Of a stretch of 25,347 bases of DNA, positions 4,817-19,954 are shown in pieces (positions within the stretch are counted from its first letter, which is position 1; each line of letters opens with the position of its first letter). The stretch spans positions 1 to 25,347 of the IMG/VR virus record IMGVR_UViG_3300042540_001278. One strand, given 5' to 3'. A program made the translations under genes and the position numbers. This DNA is from a virus. The notes under the pieces were generated by a model, which ran no database searches, was not told the origin of the DNA, and worked only from the letters and a program-made list of their open reading frames with translations.

Positions 4817-5098
4817 ATGGACGCTGGTGAACTGGACATCGAAGACCTGCCGCCGAAGGCACTGCGGAAACTGATTCGCAGCATGATGGCGAAGGCTGGC
4901 AAGCCGCGTGATGACGACGCGGCCGACAAGGCCGACGACGAGCGCGAGGCGTTGGCTGACCTCAAGGAAGAGTCCAACGGCAAGGCACCGAAGATTCCGG
5001 TGAGCGAGGACGACCTCCCGCCTGAGTTGCGTGACGACGAGGACGAAGACGAGGACGAGGGCAAGAAGCCCGGCAAGCCAAAGCGGAAGGCCAAGTAA
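4817..5098 (+). CDS. Small highly charged protein with two EDLPP-type motifs
   Basis: This 93-aa protein starts at ATG 4817, preceded by AAGGAG (4804-4809, 7-nt spacer); this is far better than the GTG at 4799 in the same frame. The N-terminus has an EDLPP motif (residues 9-13) followed by a basic helix. The middle is Asp/Glu/Lys-rich, a second EDDLPPEL motif covers 64-71, then comes an acidic run and a Lys/Arg/Pro tail. The next, giant protein carries the same short DDLPP motif several times. A scaffold-, chaperone- or adaptor-like role for the neighbouring virion proteins is possible. No family is recognised. Its TAA overlaps the next ATG by one base. Confidence 0.7.
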   Translation: MDAGELDIEDLPPKALRKLIRSMMAKAGKPRDDDAADKADDEREALADLKEESNGKAPKIPVSEDDLPPELRDDEDEDEDEGKKPGKPKRKAK

Positions 5099-8000
5099 TG
5101 GCGACGATCATCGAGTTGCTCAACGAACTTCGGGAAAAGAGCGCCCGTGCGGGCGTTCGCGGTCCCGGTGCAACTGGGGCCATGACAGCGCGTGGCTACG
5201 TGCCGTCGCAGCCGTCGAAGGTGATCCCGCAGCAACTCCGCGATGCCTTGATGAACAAGGCGGCTCGTGGCGAGCGGCTGTCTGACTCAGAGCGTGCCAT
5301 TCTGGAGGAGGCAGGTCGCCAGCAGCAGGCTGGCCTCTTGCCTCCCTACGAGCCGGGCGCCAGCAGGCTTGAACCGGAGCCCGCCGCTGCCCCCACCCCA
5401 GAGGCGGTCAGTGCGGCGACCGGCGTGCCGGAAGAAGCCGTGACGATCATGGGGGCGGACGGCAAGTTCTTCTTGGTGGACGCTGGCGGCGAACGGCTCG
5501 AGGAAGTCACGCGGCTTCGAGATGGCACGTTCTCGCTGCCCAACGGCACCCGGCTGCAAATGTCGGACGATGCCCAGGGCTTTGAGGTGGTTCCTGGCGA
5601 CCTCACCACTACCAGTGCCGCTGGCACAGACAACTTGGAGGCGTCGGCGGTCGAGCTCGACGGGCCGAAGGCCGGTGCTAGGGGCGTTGGCCGCAAGCGC
5701 AAGGGTCCGTCCAAGATCGACAAACTGGCGGACGACATTCGTCAAGCCACTGCTCCTGCCGCTGGCGAGGAGGCGCTGGCTAACCTGCCTGCAATCGTGA
5801 AGCGGGTGGAAGCCCTTGCGACGGAGGGACGGCTAGACGAACTCCTGACGCATCCCTCGATTGCAGAGGGCATCGAATCGCTTGCTGCCCGCAATGATCC
5901 CGCTGCCCGCGAGGCCGCTATTGGCCGGGCCCGCGCCCGCCTGGAAGCGCTGCGGGGCTCTGTGTCCACGACCGACCGGGCCGCCGCACAGTTGGACAGC
6001 GCCGCCCAGGCACGACAGTCTGCTGGCCGCCCCGCTGCCCCGAACGCAGACCGCCGCCCCGCTGAGGCCGACTTCACGGCCGCTCGCCAGTTGGTCGGTG
6101 AAACGCTCCCGAAGGGCGATTTCCGGGCGGTGGCCGCTGCTTACAACGCTCTGCCGCCGGAGGCGAGAGCCGCCCTGCTCTCGCGCATGGACGACAGCAC
6201 CCGCGAAGCCTTGCGGCGAGGCATTGAGCGTGTAGTGCAGGACAGCGCTGGCGGGCCGCTCGACAGGGCAGCGCTCAGGCAGGCTGCTGATCCGCAGTTC
6301 GCGCAACTGATGCAGGGCGGGGACATGTCCCCTGCGGTGGTTGACGCGATCACTCGCCCGGTCAATGACATCGAAGGGCTCTTGCAGCAACTCGACGCCG
6401 CCATGCGGTCTGGCAACGAAGAGGCTGTGGCGGCACTGCGGCAGCAAGTCCAAGAGGCCGCCCGCGCCTCAGCCGAAGAAGGCGTTGATCCGCGATTCAC
6501 TGGCGCTGCAGTGGCGCAGCGCAACTTCCTTGGTCGCCGCCAACTGGCAGACAGCCTGCGGCGAGAACTCATCGGGCAAGACCCCATGGTGGCCGCTGAG
6601 GCCAGCCGCATGAGGGCCGCCGCCGTCGCCCCGCCGCAGCCATCGAACATTGCTCCCGGCGCCCGCCAGCCCGAAGTGCAGGCATTTGACCGCCAGCCCA
6701 ACGAGATGCCCACCGACGCAGACGAGGCCCGCTCGCTTGGGCGTGAGGCTGCGATGGAGCGGGCCGACAGGGCTCCGCTGGGCGGCATGGAAGATGGCGC
6801 TCGCCGGGAAGCCTTTGGCGACGACCTCCCCGTCTTCTTGCGAGGGGAGGACCGCAACCCCCCGATGGAGACCCGCAGGCGAAACGAGCGGCTTGACACC
6901 CGCGACATCGATGCCGTTGAAAAGGCCGAGCGGTTGGAGCAAGAGGTGGCCCAGGCCCAGCAGGCCGTCGATGCCGCTGCGGATCCGGCGGCTCGCGTCG
7001 CGGCCCTGTCCAGGCTCCAGAAGGCTTACGCCGCCATCGACAAGGCTTATCCGCCGCGACTCGTCAACGATGCGACAGGGGAGGTCATTGCGCGAGTCAC
7101 GCCAGCGCAACGGCGAGGGGAAGAAATCCCGAAGGGCTATCGTCTGGAGACGGGCCGCAAGGCGTACGCCGACAGCAGCGTCAATCGCGCCAGTGCGCAG
7201 GAAACCTTTGAGGACTTGTTCTTTGGCGTGACGGGTTTCCGGCGGCGTGGGCGCCGTGCCATCTCCAACACCAACGAGAAGGGCATGAGCGCCCAGGATC
7301 TTGGCGCCTCGCTGGACGATGCTCGCCTGGAGTTTGGCGACGACGTCTCTGAGTTCATCGACGACCTCCAGGGCGACTTCGCCTTCCGGGATGAGGTGAA
7401 CGAACTGATTGACGCCCCGCCGGTGGGCCGCAAGCAGCAAGTCAGAGGTGGCCAGCCGCAGCAAAGCCGCTTGACGGACTCCCTTGATCGTGGGTTCGGC
7501 GGCATCAATCCGCTCGACTCCGGCATGACTGCGGAAGAGGTCGCTCGCGAGGTTGCGTCTCGCGTTCGCGGGCTGCGGCCCGGCACCGCCACCTACGATT
7601 TGATGGTCGAGCGGTTTGCGAAGGCCGTGCAGGACAAGTACGGGCAACCCGCTGGGTTCCGCACTGGGGTGGACGCCAGCGAAGCCAAGGCGGCCCAGCC
7701 TGTGTCCTCCCGGCCCCAAGATCCTGCTCCCCCTGCGGCGGATGACCTTCCGCCCGTCGCTGGAGATGTTCCTGCTGCTGCGGCGGATGACCTTCCGCCT
7801 GCTGCTGGGGACGTTCCTGCGGCGACCCCCGAAGCCGCCAAACTGGACGCCTCTGCGACCGAACTTGGGGAAGTCGCTGGCGACCTGCCTCCGCCAGCCG
7901 CTGCAAGAGACACCGCGACCGTCCGGATTGGCGATCAGGAATATGTCGTGCCCCGTGCCGCAGTCGATGACATCCAAACGCAAGCCGATGCGGTGCGTGA

Positions 8001-8793
8001 AGAGGCATATCAGGCCGCCATCGCGGCTGGAGTTCCGAAGCGCAAGGCTGCAATCCAGGCTGGGGAAGCGCGTAAGGCATACGTGGAGCAGGAGCTTCGG
8101 AAGGCCCACGAGGCTCGCGCCGCTGGCCTGCCGCCCTCGAAGGGTGATTTGGGCGCCGCCGACGCCACGCCTGCCCCTGCGGCGGCTGACGCTACGCCAG
8201 CGGCGGCGGCCCCAGATGACCTGCCCCCGCCCGCTGGAGACGTCCCGCCACGTGCGGACGCAGACCCTGCTACCCCAGACGCTGACCGCCCGCCCAAGGC
8301 CGACGACGACCTGCCAGCCCCAGAGGGCGACCTTGAGGCCGATAAGCCCAAGGCCGATGGCGACACGCCCCCGAAGGACAAGGACGACAGAAAGGACGGC
8401 GACACGGACGGCAGCAAGGACGGCGACACGGGCGGCAAGCCCGCACCGGAGTCTTTGCTCAAGCGGCTGCGCTCGGGGGCGTGGAAGTGGGGCAGGCGTG
8501 GAGCGATTGCAGGCGGCTTAGTCGGCGCTGGGCTAATCGGACGCGGTGTTCTTGAGGGACTGACGCAGGGCTCTGGCGTGCCTCCTGGCCCTGCTCCGGG
8601 TCCGGGTGGCGGTGGCATGCCTCCCGTCGGCCTCCCGCCGCTCCCGCCGGTCGGGCAGGGCGGCGCTGGCGATCCGGCGGCCGACCGCGAAGCGCGAATC
8701 AATGCGGCGGTGGAAGGCATTATGCGGGGCGAAAACCTAAGGGGGCGGTTGCCGCAATACCAGATTCCCCAGGCATATAACCAGTGGAACTAA
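5098..8793 (+). CDS. Giant low-complexity virion protein (1231 aa)
   Basis: Start is ATG 5098 in a TAATG overlap with the upstream stop. The protein is mostly Ala/Arg/Glu/Gln-rich helix with linkers. Residues about 650-690 (KAERLEQEVAQAQQ) look coiled-coil. A 15-aa Pro/Asp repeat (DDLPPxAGDVPAA) is tandem at about 882-911, and DDLPP-type motifs return near 929, 1040 and 1071. A Lys/Asp/Gly-rich stretch (about 1085-1115) precedes a basic patch, then a Gly/Ala-rich hydrophobic segment (about 1134-1155) that could insert in or cross a membrane. Size, composition and position fit an ejection/internal-core or tail protein. There is no visible transglycosylase or peptidase site. Confidence 0.72.
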   Translation: MATIIELLNELREKSARAGVRGPGATGAMTARGYVPSQPSKVIPQQLRDALMNKAARGERLSDSERAILEEAGRQQQAGLLPPYEPGASRLEPEPAAAPTPEAVSAATGVPEEAVTIMGADGKFFLVDAGGERLEEVTRLRDGTFSLPNGTRLQMSDDAQGFEVVPGDLTTTSAAGTDNLEASAVELDGPKAGARGVGRKRKGPSKIDKLADDIRQATAPAAGEEALANLPAIVKRVEALATEGRLDELLTHPSIAEGIESLAARNDPAAREAAIGRARARLEALRGSVSTTDRAAAQLDSAAQARQSAGRPAAPNADRRPAEADFTAARQLVGETLPKGDFRAVAAAYNALPPEARAALLSRMDDSTREALRRGIERVVQDSAGGPLDRAALRQAADPQFAQLMQGGDMSPAVVDAITRPVNDIEGLLQQLDAAMRSGNEEAVAALRQQVQEAARASAEEGVDPRFTGAAVAQRNFLGRRQLADSLRRELIGQDPMVAAEASRMRAAAVAPPQPSNIAPGARQPEVQAFDRQPNEMPTDADEARSLGREAAMERADRAPLGGMEDGARREAFGDDLPVFLRGEDRNPPMETRRRNERLDTRDIDAVEKAERLEQEVAQAQQAVDAAADPAARVAALSRLQKAYAAIDKAYPPRLVNDATGEVIARVTPAQRRGEEIPKGYRLETGRKAYADSSVNRASAQETFEDLFFGVTGFRRRGRRAISNTNEKGMSAQDLGASLDDARLEFGDDVSEFIDDLQGDFAFRDEVNELIDAPPVGRKQQVRGGQPQQSRLTDSLDRGFGGINPLDSGMTAEEVAREVASRVRGLRPGTATYDLMVERFAKAVQDKYGQPAGFRTGVDASEAKAAQPVSSRPQDPAPPAADDLPPVAGDVPAAAADDLPPAAGDVPAATPEAAKLDASATELGEVAGDLPPPAAARDTATVRIGDQEYVVPRAAVDDIQTQADAVREEAYQAAIAAGVPKRKAAIQAGEARKAYVEQELRKAHEARAAGLPPSKGDLGAADATPAPAAADATPAAAAPDDLPPPAGDVPPRADADPATPDADRPPKADDDLPAPEGDLEADKPKADGDTPPKDKDDRKDGDTDGSKDGDTGGKPAPESLLKRLRSGAWKWGRRGAIAGGLVGAGLIGRGVLEGLTQGSGVPPGPAPGPGGGGMPPVGLPPLPPVGQGGAGDPAADREARINAAVEGIMRGENLRGRLPQYQIPQAYNQWN
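7735..7824 (+). repeat. Two tandem 45-bp in-frame units encoding a DDLPP repeat
   Basis: The 20-mer GCGGCGGATGACCTTCCGCC occurs at 7735-7754 and again at 7780-7799, exactly 45 bp apart (15 codons). Each copy encodes A-A-D-D-L-P-P followed by A-G-D-V-P-A-A. Diverged copies of the protein motif follow at about codons 929, 1040 and 1071 of the same gene. The near-identical DNA of the first two units suggests recent tandem duplication. Confidence 0.85.
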
Positions 8794-16162: not shown

Positions 16163-16488
16163 TGACACAGGCAGGGGCCAAGCCTTCCTCCACCGGCGAG
16201 CCGGACGCCGTCAGCCCCATCCGGCAACCACACACCATGTTTGAGTACGAGCAACTACACGCGATTGCGATTGCGGTCTCTGGCCGAGCGCAGGCCGGGA
16301 ACCTCGATGCCGAGAGTGCGCTCAAGTTCTGCACACATCTGCTGCCGCAGTTGATGGTGGAACTGGAGATTGCCCGCCGGGTCGAGGAGCGACTGTCAGC
16401 CATGTTTCCGGCTCCCTCAGAGCCCGAAGCGCCGCTGCCCCCAAAGCCCGCCCGTCGCACCCGCAAGCCACGAAAGGGGAAGCGCTGA
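16162..16488 (+). CDS. Small hypothetical protein between ERF and helicase
   Basis: This 108-aa protein starts at ATG 16162, one base overlapping the ERF stop (TGATG); a GTG one codon earlier is less likely. After a disordered N-terminus (about 1-25), residues about 28-80 are helical (EYEQLHAIAIAVSGRAQ...). The C-terminal 25 residues are Pro/Arg/Lys-rich and strongly basic, suitable for nucleic-acid contact. Tight coupling on both sides suggests it serves the recombination module, perhaps as an accessory to the ERF or the helicase. No family is recognised. Confidence 0.75.
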   Translation: MTQAGAKPSSTGEPDAVSPIRQPHTMFEYEQLHAIAIAVSGRAQAGNLDAESALKFCTHLLPQLMVELEIARRVEERLSAMFPAPSEPEAPLPPKPARRTRKPRKGKR

Positions 16489-18008
16489 TGGTCATGCTGC
16501 GTGACTACCAGAAGAGGGCCGTCCAGGCGGTCTGCAAGGCGGCCAAGGCAGGGCATCGCCGGATCGTTGTGTGCCAGCCTGTCGGCAGCGGGAAGACGGA
16601 GGTGCAGGCCGAACTGTGCCGCCTCGCTCGGTATCCGCTGGGGATCGTGCCGCTGGTCGATCTCATGCGGCAGAACCGAGACCGCCTGGAGCTTCGGCTG
16701 GGCGAGCGGTGCGACATCGAGCAGGGCGGCAACTACGCCGAGTCCATCGAGGGGCTGCGGAACCGCGTCATCGTTGGCTCTCGAGACAGCCTGCTTTCCA
16801 GCGGCCGCTACAAGGCTCGGGCCTACGACCGCGTGACGCTAGTGCTGGTGGACGAGTGCCACGTGGGCATCACGCCCCGCATGGAGGAGATGCTGCGGTG
16901 GTTTGAGGATCGCGGGGCCACGATCGTTGGCTTCTCGGCCACGCCCTACAAGGGCAAGGGCAAGGCTCTCCGGTACTGGCCTCGCCCGCAGATCGTGTAC
17001 TCGCTCATGGAGGGGATCAGCGACGGCTACCTCGTCGGCCCAACCTGCTTTTTGTCGGAGGCCAAGTCGTTCGACCTCTCGCTGATTGAGGACGTCGCTG
17101 GCGAGTGGAACGAGCAGAGGCTTGCCGCCGTGCTGGCGGCTGAACACTTCGCCCAAGAGGTGTCGAGCCTCGTCCTCCAGACGCACAAGGGACAGCCATC
17201 TGTGGTCTACGCCGCTCACGTTCGGCAGGCCAGCCTGCTGGCGGAAGTGTTCCAGCGGTACGGGGCGAAGGTGGCCATCGTCCACTCCAAGCAGAACCCT
17301 CTGGTTCGCAAGGAGAACATGGATGCCTTCGTCGCTGGCGAGGCCCGCATCATCATCAACGTGGGCGTCTTGGGCTACGGCTGGGACTTTCCCGGGCTTC
17401 GCAACATCTACATGGCGGCGCCGACCCGCAGTCTCTCACGCTACGAGCAGCGGCTCGGGAGAGGCACGCGGCCACTGCCGGGAACCATCCACCCGGAGAT
17501 GACCCGCGACGAGCGGCTGGCGGCGATCCGTTCCAGCGACAAGCCCACGTTCAACCTGTACGACATCACCGACGCCAGCCGCAGCCACCAACTGCTCTCG
17601 GCCCTGGACGTTCTGGATGCCAAGTGCCGCAAGTCGGCCAAGCGTCGGCAGACGATCCGGGATCTCCTGACGTCTGACGGCGTCGAGGCCGTCGAGGCCA
17701 TGCGGCAGGCCGACGAACTGGAGCATGCCGAACTGGCCCTCCAGGCACAGGAACTGATCGAGAAGCGGAAGCGTCTGGTCGTGGGCGTAACCTTCGACCA
17801 TGAGACCCGCGACCTGTTCTCGGAGCCAGAGGGCAAGAAGCGGCGTGGCTGGCGGATGCTGTACGGCAAATACAAGGGCCAGCCGCTTGAAAGCCTGCCC
17901 GCCAGTTATCTGGCGTGGGTGCTGGAATCGACCAAGAAGGACTCGCCGTTCAAGTCGGCGGTACGGCACGCACTGGCGAAGCGCAAGGAAGCAACAGCCA
18001 CTCACTGA
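16488..18008 (+). CDS. SF2 DEAD/DEAH-type helicase with DUF3820-like tail
   Basis: This 506-aa protein starts at ATG 16488 (TGATG overlap; AAAGGGGA upstream). Motifs in order: LRDYQKRAV (Q-motif-like, Q8), Walker A PVGSGKT (31-37), motif II DECH (122-125), motif III SATP (150-153), a second RecA-like domain, and motif VI QRLGRGTR (321-328). The C-terminus (about 459-480) reads YGKYKGQPLESLPASYLAW, matching the DUF3820 pattern. The arrangement resembles RadD-type helicases linked to recombination and branch processing. It should use ATP to move on or remodel DNA, probably with the neighbouring exonuclease, ERF and nuclease. It is unlikely to be a restriction subunit, because no modification genes are near. 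Confidence 0.92.
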   Translation: MVMLRDYQKRAVQAVCKAAKAGHRRIVVCQPVGSGKTEVQAELCRLARYPLGIVPLVDLMRQNRDRLELRLGERCDIEQGGNYAESIEGLRNRVIVGSRDSLLSSGRYKARAYDRVTLVLVDECHVGITPRMEEMLRWFEDRGATIVGFSATPYKGKGKALRYWPRPQIVYSLMEGISDGYLVGPTCFLSEAKSFDLSLIEDVAGEWNEQRLAAVLAAEHFAQEVSSLVLQTHKGQPSVVYAAHVRQASLLAEVFQRYGAKVAIVHSKQNPLVRKENMDAFVAGEARIIINVGVLGYGWDFPGLRNIYMAAPTRSLSRYEQRLGRGTRPLPGTIHPEMTRDERLAAIRSSDKPTFNLYDITDASRSHQLLSALDVLDAKCRKSAKRRQTIRDLLTSDGVEAVEAMRQADELEHAELALQAQELIEKRKRLVVGVTFDHETRDLFSEPEGKKRRGWRMLYGKYKGQPLESLPASYLAWVLESTKKDSPFKSAVRHALAKRKEATATH

Positions 18009-18016
18009 GAGGCGGC

Positions 18017-18421
18017 ATGGACAAGGGACTGTCTGATGGACGTTACATCTGTGAAATCGGCATGGCGATGGCTGTCGCGGCGCTGCTGCGTGCTGGCTAT
18101 CAAGTGGCTATTCCGCTCATCGACGAGGGCTACGACATCTTGGCCTGCGAAGGGCGGCGCTGCTGGCGCATCCAAGTCAAGGCAACTGCCCGAACGTCCG
18201 GCAAGAACAAGTCGCGAGTGCGAATCAATCGCGGCGGCCGCAAGCAACTGCGTTACGAGGCCAGCCAAGTCGATGCCTTTGTCGTGGCGAACATATCGAC
18301 CGGGCTCCTGCTCTGCGTGCCGTTCGCCAAAGCGGGTGGCCGAAGTTGGATCAACCTCTCCGTCGGGGATCAGTACGCCGACTTCCAAATCCTGAGGAGC
18401 GTCAAGCCAAACAAGAACTGA
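18017..18421 (+). CDS. Small PD-(D/E)XK endonuclease-like protein
   Basis: Start ATG 18017 is 8 bp after the helicase stop; a longer reading into the helicase gene is rejected. The 134-aa protein has E13 in ICEIG, D40 in DEGYD, and Q53-V-K55 in RIQVK, followed by a basic Arg/Lys stretch. This E...D...(E/Q)xK order fits compact PD-(D/E)XK endonucleases, such as Holliday-junction-resolvase-like or PF11645-type enzymes. With the upstream helicase it could cut branched recombination intermediates. It is the last gene before the 297-nt non-coding gap. Confidence 0.82.
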   Translation: MDKGLSDGRYICEIGMAMAVAALLRAGYQVAIPLIDEGYDILACEGRRCWRIQVKATARTSGKNKSRVRINRGGRKQLRYEASQVDAFVVANISTGLLLCVPFAKAGGRSWINLSVGDQYADFQILRSVKPNKN

Positions 18422-18718
18422 CTGACAACACAAACGGCTGCGTGGGTTGGGTGAACCTCTGGCACGCAGGCGCATGACTCGCAACCAGAAGGGATTTGGA
18501 CGACAGCGAGTAGGCCAGCCGCAAGCGACAGGGCCAAGTCCGACGGTCAGCAACCATGGCCGATAAGCAGGTCGCATGTCACCCGCCGGTGCGGCAGGGT
18601 GGCCACCCGAAAGCGTCCTAACGAGCAGCGGACAGGGTGGCGGCTAACCCCAGCATCACGCTGGGGATTAGTCGCCGTCCACCCATTGCGAGCCTTCAAG
18701 CAACAGACAGGGGCTTCC
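18422..18718 (+). ncRNA. Structured non-coding gap: candidate ncRNA or leader
   Basis: This 297-nt stretch is the largest gap in an otherwise overlapping operon. Read as RNA it holds several hairpins. Helix 1 is CTGCGTG+GGTT (18438-18448) with AACC (18454-18457) and CACGCAG (18463-18469). Helix 2 is ACTCGC (18477-18482) with GCGAGT (18506-18511). Helix 3 is CACCCGCCG (18580-18588) with CGGC/GGGTG (18592-18601, bulged A). Helix 4 is a roughly 20-bp stem, 18635-18654 with 18660-18680, one bulged A at 18667, loop ATCAC. GCCACCC (18602-18608) can instead pair GGGTGGC (18635-18641), competing with helix 4. No poly-T tract marks a terminator. I do not recognise a known RNA class. Confidence 0.5.
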
Positions 18719-19009
18719 ATGACACAGGACTTGGTCTTACTGAGATACAGGGATCAGCAGAGCAACAGATTGACCGCAATGTGTAGGCCCAAGGAGATGA
18801 GCGAGTTGATGAGGTCGGTGTTAGCGGGCCTTGGGGAGTCCGACGCGGCTTGGCTGCGAGACGAGGGCAAGGCTGCTGTGATCGTCGCACCCAGCGGGTC
18901 ACTGCTCATCACATCGCCTTCCGACCTTCACCTGCTGTCGTTCTGGTTCTCGCTTGCGGCTGCATGGATGGAGACCGAGCAGGAAGACGCGACTACGAAA
19001 GGAGAGTGA
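18719..19009 (+). CDS. Small hypothetical protein after the structured gap
   Basis: The chosen start is ATG 18719 with AGGGG at 18709-18713 (96 aa). A longer reading from 18599 would translate the strong hairpin and gives a low-quality N-terminus, so it is rejected. The protein has a central helix (KEMSELMRSVLAGLG), a possible beta segment (AAVIVAPSGSLLIT), and a hydrophobic stretch with Trp residues (about 72-87). It does not match a family I know. The upstream AGCC (18691-18694) can pair with GGCT (18712-18715) and partly mask the ribosome-binding site. Confidence 0.65.
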   Translation: MTQDLVLLRYRDQQSNRLTAMCRPKEMSELMRSVLAGLGESDAAWLRDEGKAAVIVAPSGSLLITSPSDLHLLSFWFSLAAAWMETEQEDATTKGE

Positions 19010-19013
19010 TCGC

Positions 19014-19265
19014 ATGTCCGGGTTTCTTTCACAGGCGATTAGCAGGCTGCTAGTTGCCAACGACGCGATGGCGACGGCTGCTCGCACGGCCGGGATGCTG
19101 CGGCGGCGGCGACCGGCCGTGATCGAGGAAATCACCGACGTTCGGGAGCCGCACGAACCGCCAGTCATTCGCTGGTCTGTGTTCTTCCGGTCTCGCGAGG
19201 ATGCGATTGAGTTCGACGGCGCTGTGTTGCAAATGGCCAGGGCCGTTTCGGAGGAGGAGGAGTGA
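19014..19265 (+). CDS. Small hypothetical protein upstream of HNH fusion
   Basis: This 83-aa protein has an AAAGGAGAG ribosome-binding site directly before ATG 19014. An N-terminal helix (FLSQAISRLLVANDAM) is followed by an Arg-rich patch (LRRRRPAV), then a probable beta-alpha segment with IRWSVFFRSREDA. The end is acidic (EEEE) because the next gene's GGAGGAGGAG ribosome-binding site is encoded there. It is coupled to the downstream gene by GTGA overlap. Function is unknown. Confidence 0.68.
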   Translation: MSGFLSQAISRLLVANDAMATAARTAGMLRRRRPAVIEEITDVREPHEPPVIRWSVFFRSREDAIEFDGAVLQMARAVSEEEE

Positions 19266-19954
19266 GCCATGCTGTGCTATCTGCCTTTGCTGACACATTC
19301 CAGTTTTGTGCGGTGTGCTGGAGCCGAGAGCGGCTGCACATTCACCATCTGGTCGGCGGCGCCGGACGCAAGCACGACCGCAGAAACTTGCTGCGTTTGT
19401 GCATGTGGTGCCATCACGGTCTCCACTCGGGCGGGGTGCATAACCTCACGCCCGGGATGTGCCTATCTGCCAAGCGGGAAGTGGATGACGCCCACTACGA
19501 CCCAGGGTTTCTTGCCAGCCTGCGGCACCGCAGGCATCTGGGGCACGACCCGGAGTGCTATCCACCGCGTGTTCTCGGGTTTCGCCGCCGTAATGGGCCT
19601 CCGCAGGAGTTGATCGACATGGCAATCAACAGTCGCCGCAAGGGCAAGGTCGGGGAACTGGAGGCCGCTGCGGAGGTCAATCGCCTGCTGCCAAAGGCTT
19701 TGGCTCGCAGGTCTCAGCAGCACAGCGGCACCGAAAGCGCGTCCGATCTCATCGCCCCTGGCCTGCCCGGCCTGTGGCTTGAGGTCAAGCGGGTGCAGAA
19801 GTTGAACCTGACTGAGGTGATGGAGAAGTCCCGGGAGCAGTGCGGCTCGCTGGTTCCTGTGGTGTTGCACCGCAAGAACGACGCGGAGTGGCTGGTGACT
19901 TTCCCGCTTGAGCAAATCCAGCAGTTCGTGCAGCAGGTGCAGGGAGGGATGTGA
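19262..19954 (+). CDS. HNH domain fused to PD-(D/E)XK nuclease domain
   Basis: Start is GTG 19262 (GTGA overlap, repeated GGAGG ribosome-binding site). Residues about 14-58 form an HNH module: C16xxC19, H-I-H-H (26-29), N42 and C47xxC50 with H51/H52/H55. Residues about 120-215 form a second nuclease: G-E132, D162 in SASDL, and E174-V-K176, with an SQQHSG block as in phage Holliday-junction-resolvase-like PD-(D/E)XK proteins. The reading frame is continuous. An internal AGGAG (19605-19609) lies 9 nt before in-frame ATG 19619 (M120), so a separate nuclease-only product is possible. It may nick or resolve DNA branches. The linked two-nuclease design is unusual. Confidence 0.85.
   Translation: MSHAVLSAFADTFQFCAVCWSRERLHIHHLVGGAGRKHDRRNLLRLCMWCHHGLHSGGVHNLTPGMCLSAKREVDDAHYDPGFLASLRHRRHLGHDPECYPPRVLGFRRRNGPPQELIDMAINSRRKGKVGELEAAAEVNRLLPKALARRSQQHSGTESASDLIAPGLPGLWLEVKRVQKLNLTEVMEKSREQCGSLVPVVLHRKNDAEWLVTFPLEQIQQFVQQVQGGM

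Follow-up and report, generated by a model that had tools for sequence, protein, structure and literature searches.

A candidate stand-alone structured RNA with chained pseudoknots in a phage recombination and replication operon

Locus and conservation of the gap

The window, the whole stretch of DNA analysed here, corresponds to positions 1 to 25,347 (25,347 bases) of the IMG/VR virus record IMGVR_UViG_3300042540_001278. The operon considered encodes a RecE-like exonuclease, an ERF annealing protein, a helicase, often a PD-(D/E)XK protein, and a RusA-like protein. It is interrupted by a 297-nt gap (18422-18718), bounded by a stop codon ending at position 18421 and a homologue-supported ATG at position 18719 (Table 1). 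The initial annotation, made from the sequence of the window, had noted the lack of a convincing gene between the neighbouring genes at this site. This observation was confirmed: the gap is present, and it is non-coding across homologues. Elsewhere in the window, the genes at 5098-8793 (1231 aa) and 570-2006 (478 aa) had no PHROGs match.

We searched IMG/VR using the proteins encoded next to the gap, together with DNA patterns derived from its sequence. In this sample, which includes partial genomes, homologues of the gap sequence (here termed type-A RNA) were found on about 48 IMG/VR contigs and on one contig of a Pirellulaceae (Planctomycetota) metagenome-assembled genome (MAG). Five further loci (L111, L114, L118, L119 and L128) were discarded as chance pattern matches. 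Nucleotide identity to the homologues was 73-89% for the RNA and 60-91% for the flanking genes, and conservation of the gap exceeded that of the adjacent genes in almost all pairwise comparisons. Between the window and L033, for example, identity reached 88% in the gap, against 73% for the helicase gene, 60% for the upstream gene and 71% for the RusA-like gene. In L113 and L120, the helicase displayed only about 32% protein identity, yet the gap remained 75-76% identical. Two relatives departed from this trend: in L126, identity was 73% for the gap and 74% for the helicase, and in L011, the closest relative, these values were 89% and 91%. Stop codons were present in every frame across the homologues and indels were mostly of 1-2 nt, indicating that the gap is not a protein gene. 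A GTG frame running from position 18599 into the downstream gene could be taken for an undetected coding sequence, but no frame is open across the homologues, short indels dominate and the changes are structure-driven, making this explanation extremely unlikely.

The type-A RNA was single-copy in each of the six whole records searched. A search of 392 Planctomycetota genomes with the type-A model R1 returned one true copy, in the Pirellulaceae MAG already found; eight other matches scoring 20-26 bits, six of which were inspected, were judged to be due to chance. No DNA match was obtained in the annotated phage and plasmid collections. The MAG copy (L120, JAGYIQ010000016.1) is the only one from a cellular genome collection; it hints at a Planctomycetota host, although this single contig could be a mis-binned phage contig.

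Table 1. Coordinates of the genes, helices, pseudoknots and repeats at the locus
Feature	Position	Strand	Remarks
Upstream helicase (ResIII/Helicase_C)	16488-18008	+	Near-full relatives carry RNA A or B
PD-(D/E)XK endonuclease-like gene, directly upstream	18020-18421	+	Not in all loci
Type-A structured RNA, conserved block	18435-18712	+	About 280 letters; from nucleotide identity to homologues and covariation; extent of aligned conservation, not transcript ends
P1 (18438-18444/18463-18469), capped by P1a (18445-18448/18454-18457)	18438-18469	+	P1 98.8% paired, 3 pairs compensated; 18443-18464 significant in tree-based null
PK1, TCTGG 18458-18462 (P1 loop) with CCAGA 18485-18489 (P3 loop)	18458-18489	+	97.6% paired; both-side changes in 2 pairs
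P3, ACTCGC/GCGAGT	18477-18511	+	93.3% paired, 3 compensated pairs; 2 significant in tree-based null
PK2, TTGGAC 18496-18501 (P3 loop) with GTCCGA 18538-18543 (strand after P4)	18496-18543	+	6 pairs, 100% paired in every sequence; compensatory changes in all 6
P4, GGCC 18513-18516 with GGCC 18532-18535	18513-18535	+	95% paired, 2 compensated pairs
PK3, GCGAC 18525-18529 (P4 loop) with GTCGC 18571-18575 (strand after P6)	18525-18575	+	100% paired, 2 compensated pairs
P6, CGGTC/GGCCG	18544-18562	+	100% paired, 2 compensated pairs; 18547-18559 significant in tree-based null
PK4, kissing loops of P6 and P7 (18550-18555 with 18588-18592)	18550-18592	+	96% paired, 4 of 5 pairs compensated
P7/P7a, CACCC-GCC/GGC-A-GGGTG	18580-18601	+	97.3% of counted cells paired, 3 compensated pairs; window-type rows aligned one position off
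Direct-repeat unit 1	18604-18637	+	Variable positions 18625, 18629, 18632; same letters as unit 2 in 26/26
Alternative helix, CACCC copy 1 (18604-18608) with GGGTG (18635-18639)	18604-18639	+	86% paired; exclusive with P9a
P8, TCC/GGA, inside repeat unit 1	18616-18632	+	98.7% paired; U-A/U-G variation, one-sided only
P9, 3' hairpin: P9a GGGTG/CACCC, P9b GCGGCTAA/TTAGTCGC, P9c CCCCAGC/GCTGGGG with bulged A	18635-18684	+	P9b/c 98.1% paired, 3 compensated pairs
Direct-repeat unit 2	18680-18712	+	Variable positions 18700, 18704, 18707; at least 9 joint steps with unit 1
Small downstream gene, no function assigned	18719-19009	+	Not in all loci
Gene conserved downstream of the RNA	19262-19954		HNH-like N-terminal stretch (by eye); RusA-like C-terminal match (phrog_244, residues 120-219)
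Type-B RNA examples	L008:3365-3604, L037:7547-7786, L091:2034-2273(-), others		Same slot as type A

Fold of the type-A RNA and comparison with known families

The gap of the window had a minimum free energy of -127.2 kcal/mol, with a z-score of -3.1 on the plus strand relative to shuffled sequences, versus only -1.35 on the minus strand. An alignment of 26 homologues supported 75 pairs in 13 helices, corresponding to P1/P1a, P3, P4, P6, P7/P7a, P8, P9 and four pseudoknots, with standard pairs in 97.6% of the cells. Changes on both sides were observed in 31 pairs, against a mean of 11.9 (sd 2.2) for shuffled data and 2-11 for slid controls, in which helix partners were moved by 1-3 columns. We also used a tree-based null, in our own implementation rather than R-scape, with substitutions redistributed along the tree and weighted by column variability: eight of the 75 pairs had E<0.05, versus none in six slid controls. 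The same alignment served both to derive the structure and to count its pairs; the slid controls and the tree-based null reduce this circularity without eliminating it. A test of all column pairs with no structure assumed beforehand brought a single base pair (18443-18464) near significance, and it is therefore on the proposed helices that the evidence depends. G-U cells greatly outnumbered A-C cells in the model pairs (113 versus 5), identifying the plus strand as the folding strand. Judged by this covariation, significant beyond phylogeny, the type-A RNA is a structured non-coding RNA in the general sense.

All the stems named by the initial annotation are present in the window, and most are supported by the homologues: the 11-bp stem at 18438-18469 as 7+4 bp (18438-18448 with 18454-18469), the ACTCGC/GCGAGT stem (18477-18482 with 18506-18511) and the 9-bp stem at 18580-18601. 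The four pseudoknots, together with the concerted repeats and the alternative RNA described below, were absent from that annotation. In each pseudoknot, a hairpin loop pairs with a neighbouring element, such that PK1-PK4 form a chain. PK3 occurs as GAGTC/GACTC in L123 and L131 and as GAGAC/GTCTC in L126, and PK4 has one mismatch in the window sequence itself.

No Rfam 15 family was found for the window or its homologues at the gathering threshold, and permissive searches returned only chance matches at the RNA (of the miRNA type for the window). The suggestion of a structured RNA of no recognised class is thus supported by the related gaps gathered, which display compensatory changes in the proposed stems and no codon-type conservation, and by the lack of an Rfam family explaining the RNA. 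No published report of this RNA was found in the papers searched. The many invariant unpaired positions and the chained pseudoknots would be in keeping with a self-cleaving or self-splicing ribozyme, but no Rfam ribozyme or intron matched even at permissive thresholds and the locus is intergenic rather than within a gene; we consider a ribozyme highly improbable. Group I and group II introns, in their unpermuted forms, were rejected on the same two grounds.

HEARO/OMEGA RNAs are about 300 nt long and pseudoknotted. The type-A RNA resembles them in both respects, but they need an IscB/IsrB-type partner protein, and no IscB/IsrB/TnpB gene was found beside the RNA of the window, the neighbours of which are PDDEXK, helicase, ERF, RusA-like and unassigned genes. 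One HEARO/OMEGA example measures 343 nt (PMC12286853). The STAXI motif also combines pseudoknots with proximity to genes acting on DNA, but consists of one pseudoknot repeated in tandem (PMC2864571), whereas the type-A RNA has four different, chained pseudoknots and no Rfam match. The nearest RNAs in spirit are GOLLD and ROOL, ornate RNAs of phages and prophages that are likewise phage-borne and stand-alone, with multiple pseudoknots and kissing loops and no described function (PMC12286853). GOLLD members are often >800 nt long, and GOLLD and ROOL often lie near tRNA islands (PMC12286853), whereas the type-A RNA is about 280 nt long and lies between the helicase and RusA-like genes, with no tRNA nearby. 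GOLLD and ROOL gave no match, either in sequence or with their covariance models, and ARAGORN detected no tRNA or tmRNA in the window or the scanned A and B loci. Membership of GOLLD or ROOL would also entail a homo-oligomeric RNA cage. The type-A RNA is of a known kind, that of folded phage RNAs without a described role; what is new is the absence of a match to known families, a size far below that of GOLLD, a different context and the existence of a non-homologous substitute. Known phage RNAs of comparable structural complexity are few, with roles still to be defined; here, a compact one is a constant part of one phage group.

Exclusive pairing and concerted direct repeats

The 20-bp stem proposed by the initial annotation (18635-18680) was upheld only in part. 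Its inner 15 bp (18640-18654 with 18660-18675) are supported by the homologues, but its outer 5 bp (18635-18639 with 18676-18680) fail in many of them, the two outermost positions being paired in 9/26 and 20/26 sequences. The supported outer helix is P9a, in which GGGTG (18635-18639) pairs with CACCC at 18680-18684, leaving a 4-nt bulge; its outermost pair forms in nine of the 26 sequences and the other four in 24-26, with one pair compensated. The same GGGTG strand can form an alternative helix with the upstream CACCC copy, and this helix and P9a are supported by co-variation to the same degree. A U-A to C-G change is followed by both CACCC copies in the same sequences, indicating that exclusive pairing is conserved. 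The competition between the upstream CACCC and the long stem suggested by the initial annotation thus finds comparative support, and the two CACCC copies may exchange on one GGGTG strand, with which they can pair in a mutually exclusive manner.

Such pairing could serve as the expression platform of a riboswitch or attenuator acting in cis on the downstream operon. Consistent with this possibility, the RusA-like gene is found downstream of the RNA in most loci whose contigs extend that far, only a short distance separates repeat unit 2 from the next start codon in the window, and both RNA types described below precede the same genes, with conserved genes further downstream. However, the genes touching the RNA vary among loci (neighbours in other loci were clustered, mostly without profiling) and the directly downstream gene may be different or missing. 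The distance to the next start is variable, with some starts having their own ribosome-binding site further on, no terminator-like or promoter-like site was found at the type-A RNA, and covariation spans the whole 280 nt. Given the variable neighbours, the lack of a terminator and the unfixed spacing, a stand-alone RNA is favoured, and we regard a cis-acting switch as unlikely. Of the two options raised by the initial annotation, the stand-alone phage RNA therefore fits better than the switch.

P9 is flanked by two direct repeats that evolve in concert. The letters at positions 18625/18700, 18629/18704 and 18632/18707 are identical between the units in all 26 sequences, the joint steps being counted on a tree built without the repeat units, and 18625-18700 displays the strongest covariation among all column pairs. 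No column within the RNA fits as a third partner for these variable positions. Complementarity searches for a trans partner in the phage DNA sampled gave results no stronger than those for non-cognate controls; the exact complement matches in four phage records corresponded to the repeats' own antisense, apart from one further match in one record. The concerted change of the repeats is an unusual and strong signal pointing to a common partner, and the most economical reading is that a single type of binding site would be present twice, once in each repeat, and would be recognised by this co-evolving partner, probably a protein. Direct repeats with concerted changes are also typical of DNA sites, and the neighbouring genes act on DNA, as might be expected for an origin, a cos/pac site or a recombination site with the repeats as protein-binding iterons. 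Nevertheless, the excess of G-U over A-C cells argues for one folded strand, as do the chained pseudoknots with their compensatory changes. A single folded DNA strand would be compatible with both features, and we consider a single-stranded or duplex DNA element highly improbable overall.

Type-B RNA, cassette exchange and proposed role

Related phages carry a second RNA (type B; core CGAAATCCGGGCAACGGGCAGG) at the same spot. Over its 43 pairs, 99.1% of cells are paired, and 15 pairs changed on both sides, versus 7.4 for shuffled and 0-3 for slid controls. The type-B RNA shares the slot of type A, is similar in length and has its own covarying pseudoknot, but there is no recognisable sequence or structural homology between the two. 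Treating A and B as one family was unsupported, as R1 did not match B. The B core was not found in the 392 Planctomycetota genomes. Within the type-B RNA, a single 3' strand is a potential target of two competing GCTGA..GGGC stretches.

Among 97 loci with a near-full helicase relative, a count that includes overlapping pieces of the same contig and corresponds to 45 distinct helicase sequences, 58 had A, 38 had B, none had both and one (L034) was scored as having neither; the contig of L034 ends inside the gap, which starts as A sequence. No empty site was present among these loci. On the tree of the 45 helicase sequences, the A/B label changed at least 10 times, all changes being forced by well-supported branches; recombination between helicase and RNA can generate this pattern, so ten is a count of reassortments rather than of independent inventions. 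The flanks of L036 (A) and L039 (B) match at 97.4% identity across 7.36 kb upstream and at 98.6% across 2.58 kb downstream, and the two loci differ only in the intervening cassette. The presence of exactly one of the two RNAs at each locus suggests that they do equivalent work, and A and B are probably functionally equivalent. With such a natural, non-homologous substitute, function can be tested by swaps between nearly identical phages.

An HNH endonuclease-like gene lies right after the type-A RNA, within the exchanged cassette, in L036 (7658-8311) and at the equivalent position in L066; it might promote cassette exchange. The clean exchange and the HNH gene travelling with the RNA in these two loci would fit a selfish cassette replacing itself at a permissive site, but the absence of any phage of the group with an empty site among the loci checked, and of that HNH gene from most A loci, renders this explanation very unlikely.

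We consider it probable that the gap encodes a stand-alone structured phage RNA belonging to a new class and cotranscribed with the recombination/replication operon. Comparison of the homologues indicates that the plus strand folds into a core of chained pseudoknots (PK1-PK4), followed by a 3' domain in which a long hairpin lies between the two concertedly evolving repeats. The RNA would act in trans and, judging from its position, would most likely serve the recombination/replication module, either as the RNA component of a ribonucleoprotein complex or as a regulator. The repeats may bind the common partner, and the CACCC/GGGTG exchange may correspond to a folding or binding step. A more specific, speculative and rather doubtful version is that A and B are interchangeable types of one RNA-based system, like incompatibility or immunity types, with the repeat positions setting specificity to the co-evolving partner and the CACCC/GGGTG exchange as the moving part; if true, this would constitute a category of phage RNA not previously described.

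The B core (minus-strand match to ATCCGGGCAACGGGCAGG) was also present in L073, L085, L088, L090 and L104, on unrelated-looking contigs with quite different surroundings, which suggests a wider RNA family around this core. An ERF-like gene lies near the core in L085, and L104 carries a DUF3800-IX RNA elsewhere in the locus, together with two tRNAs.
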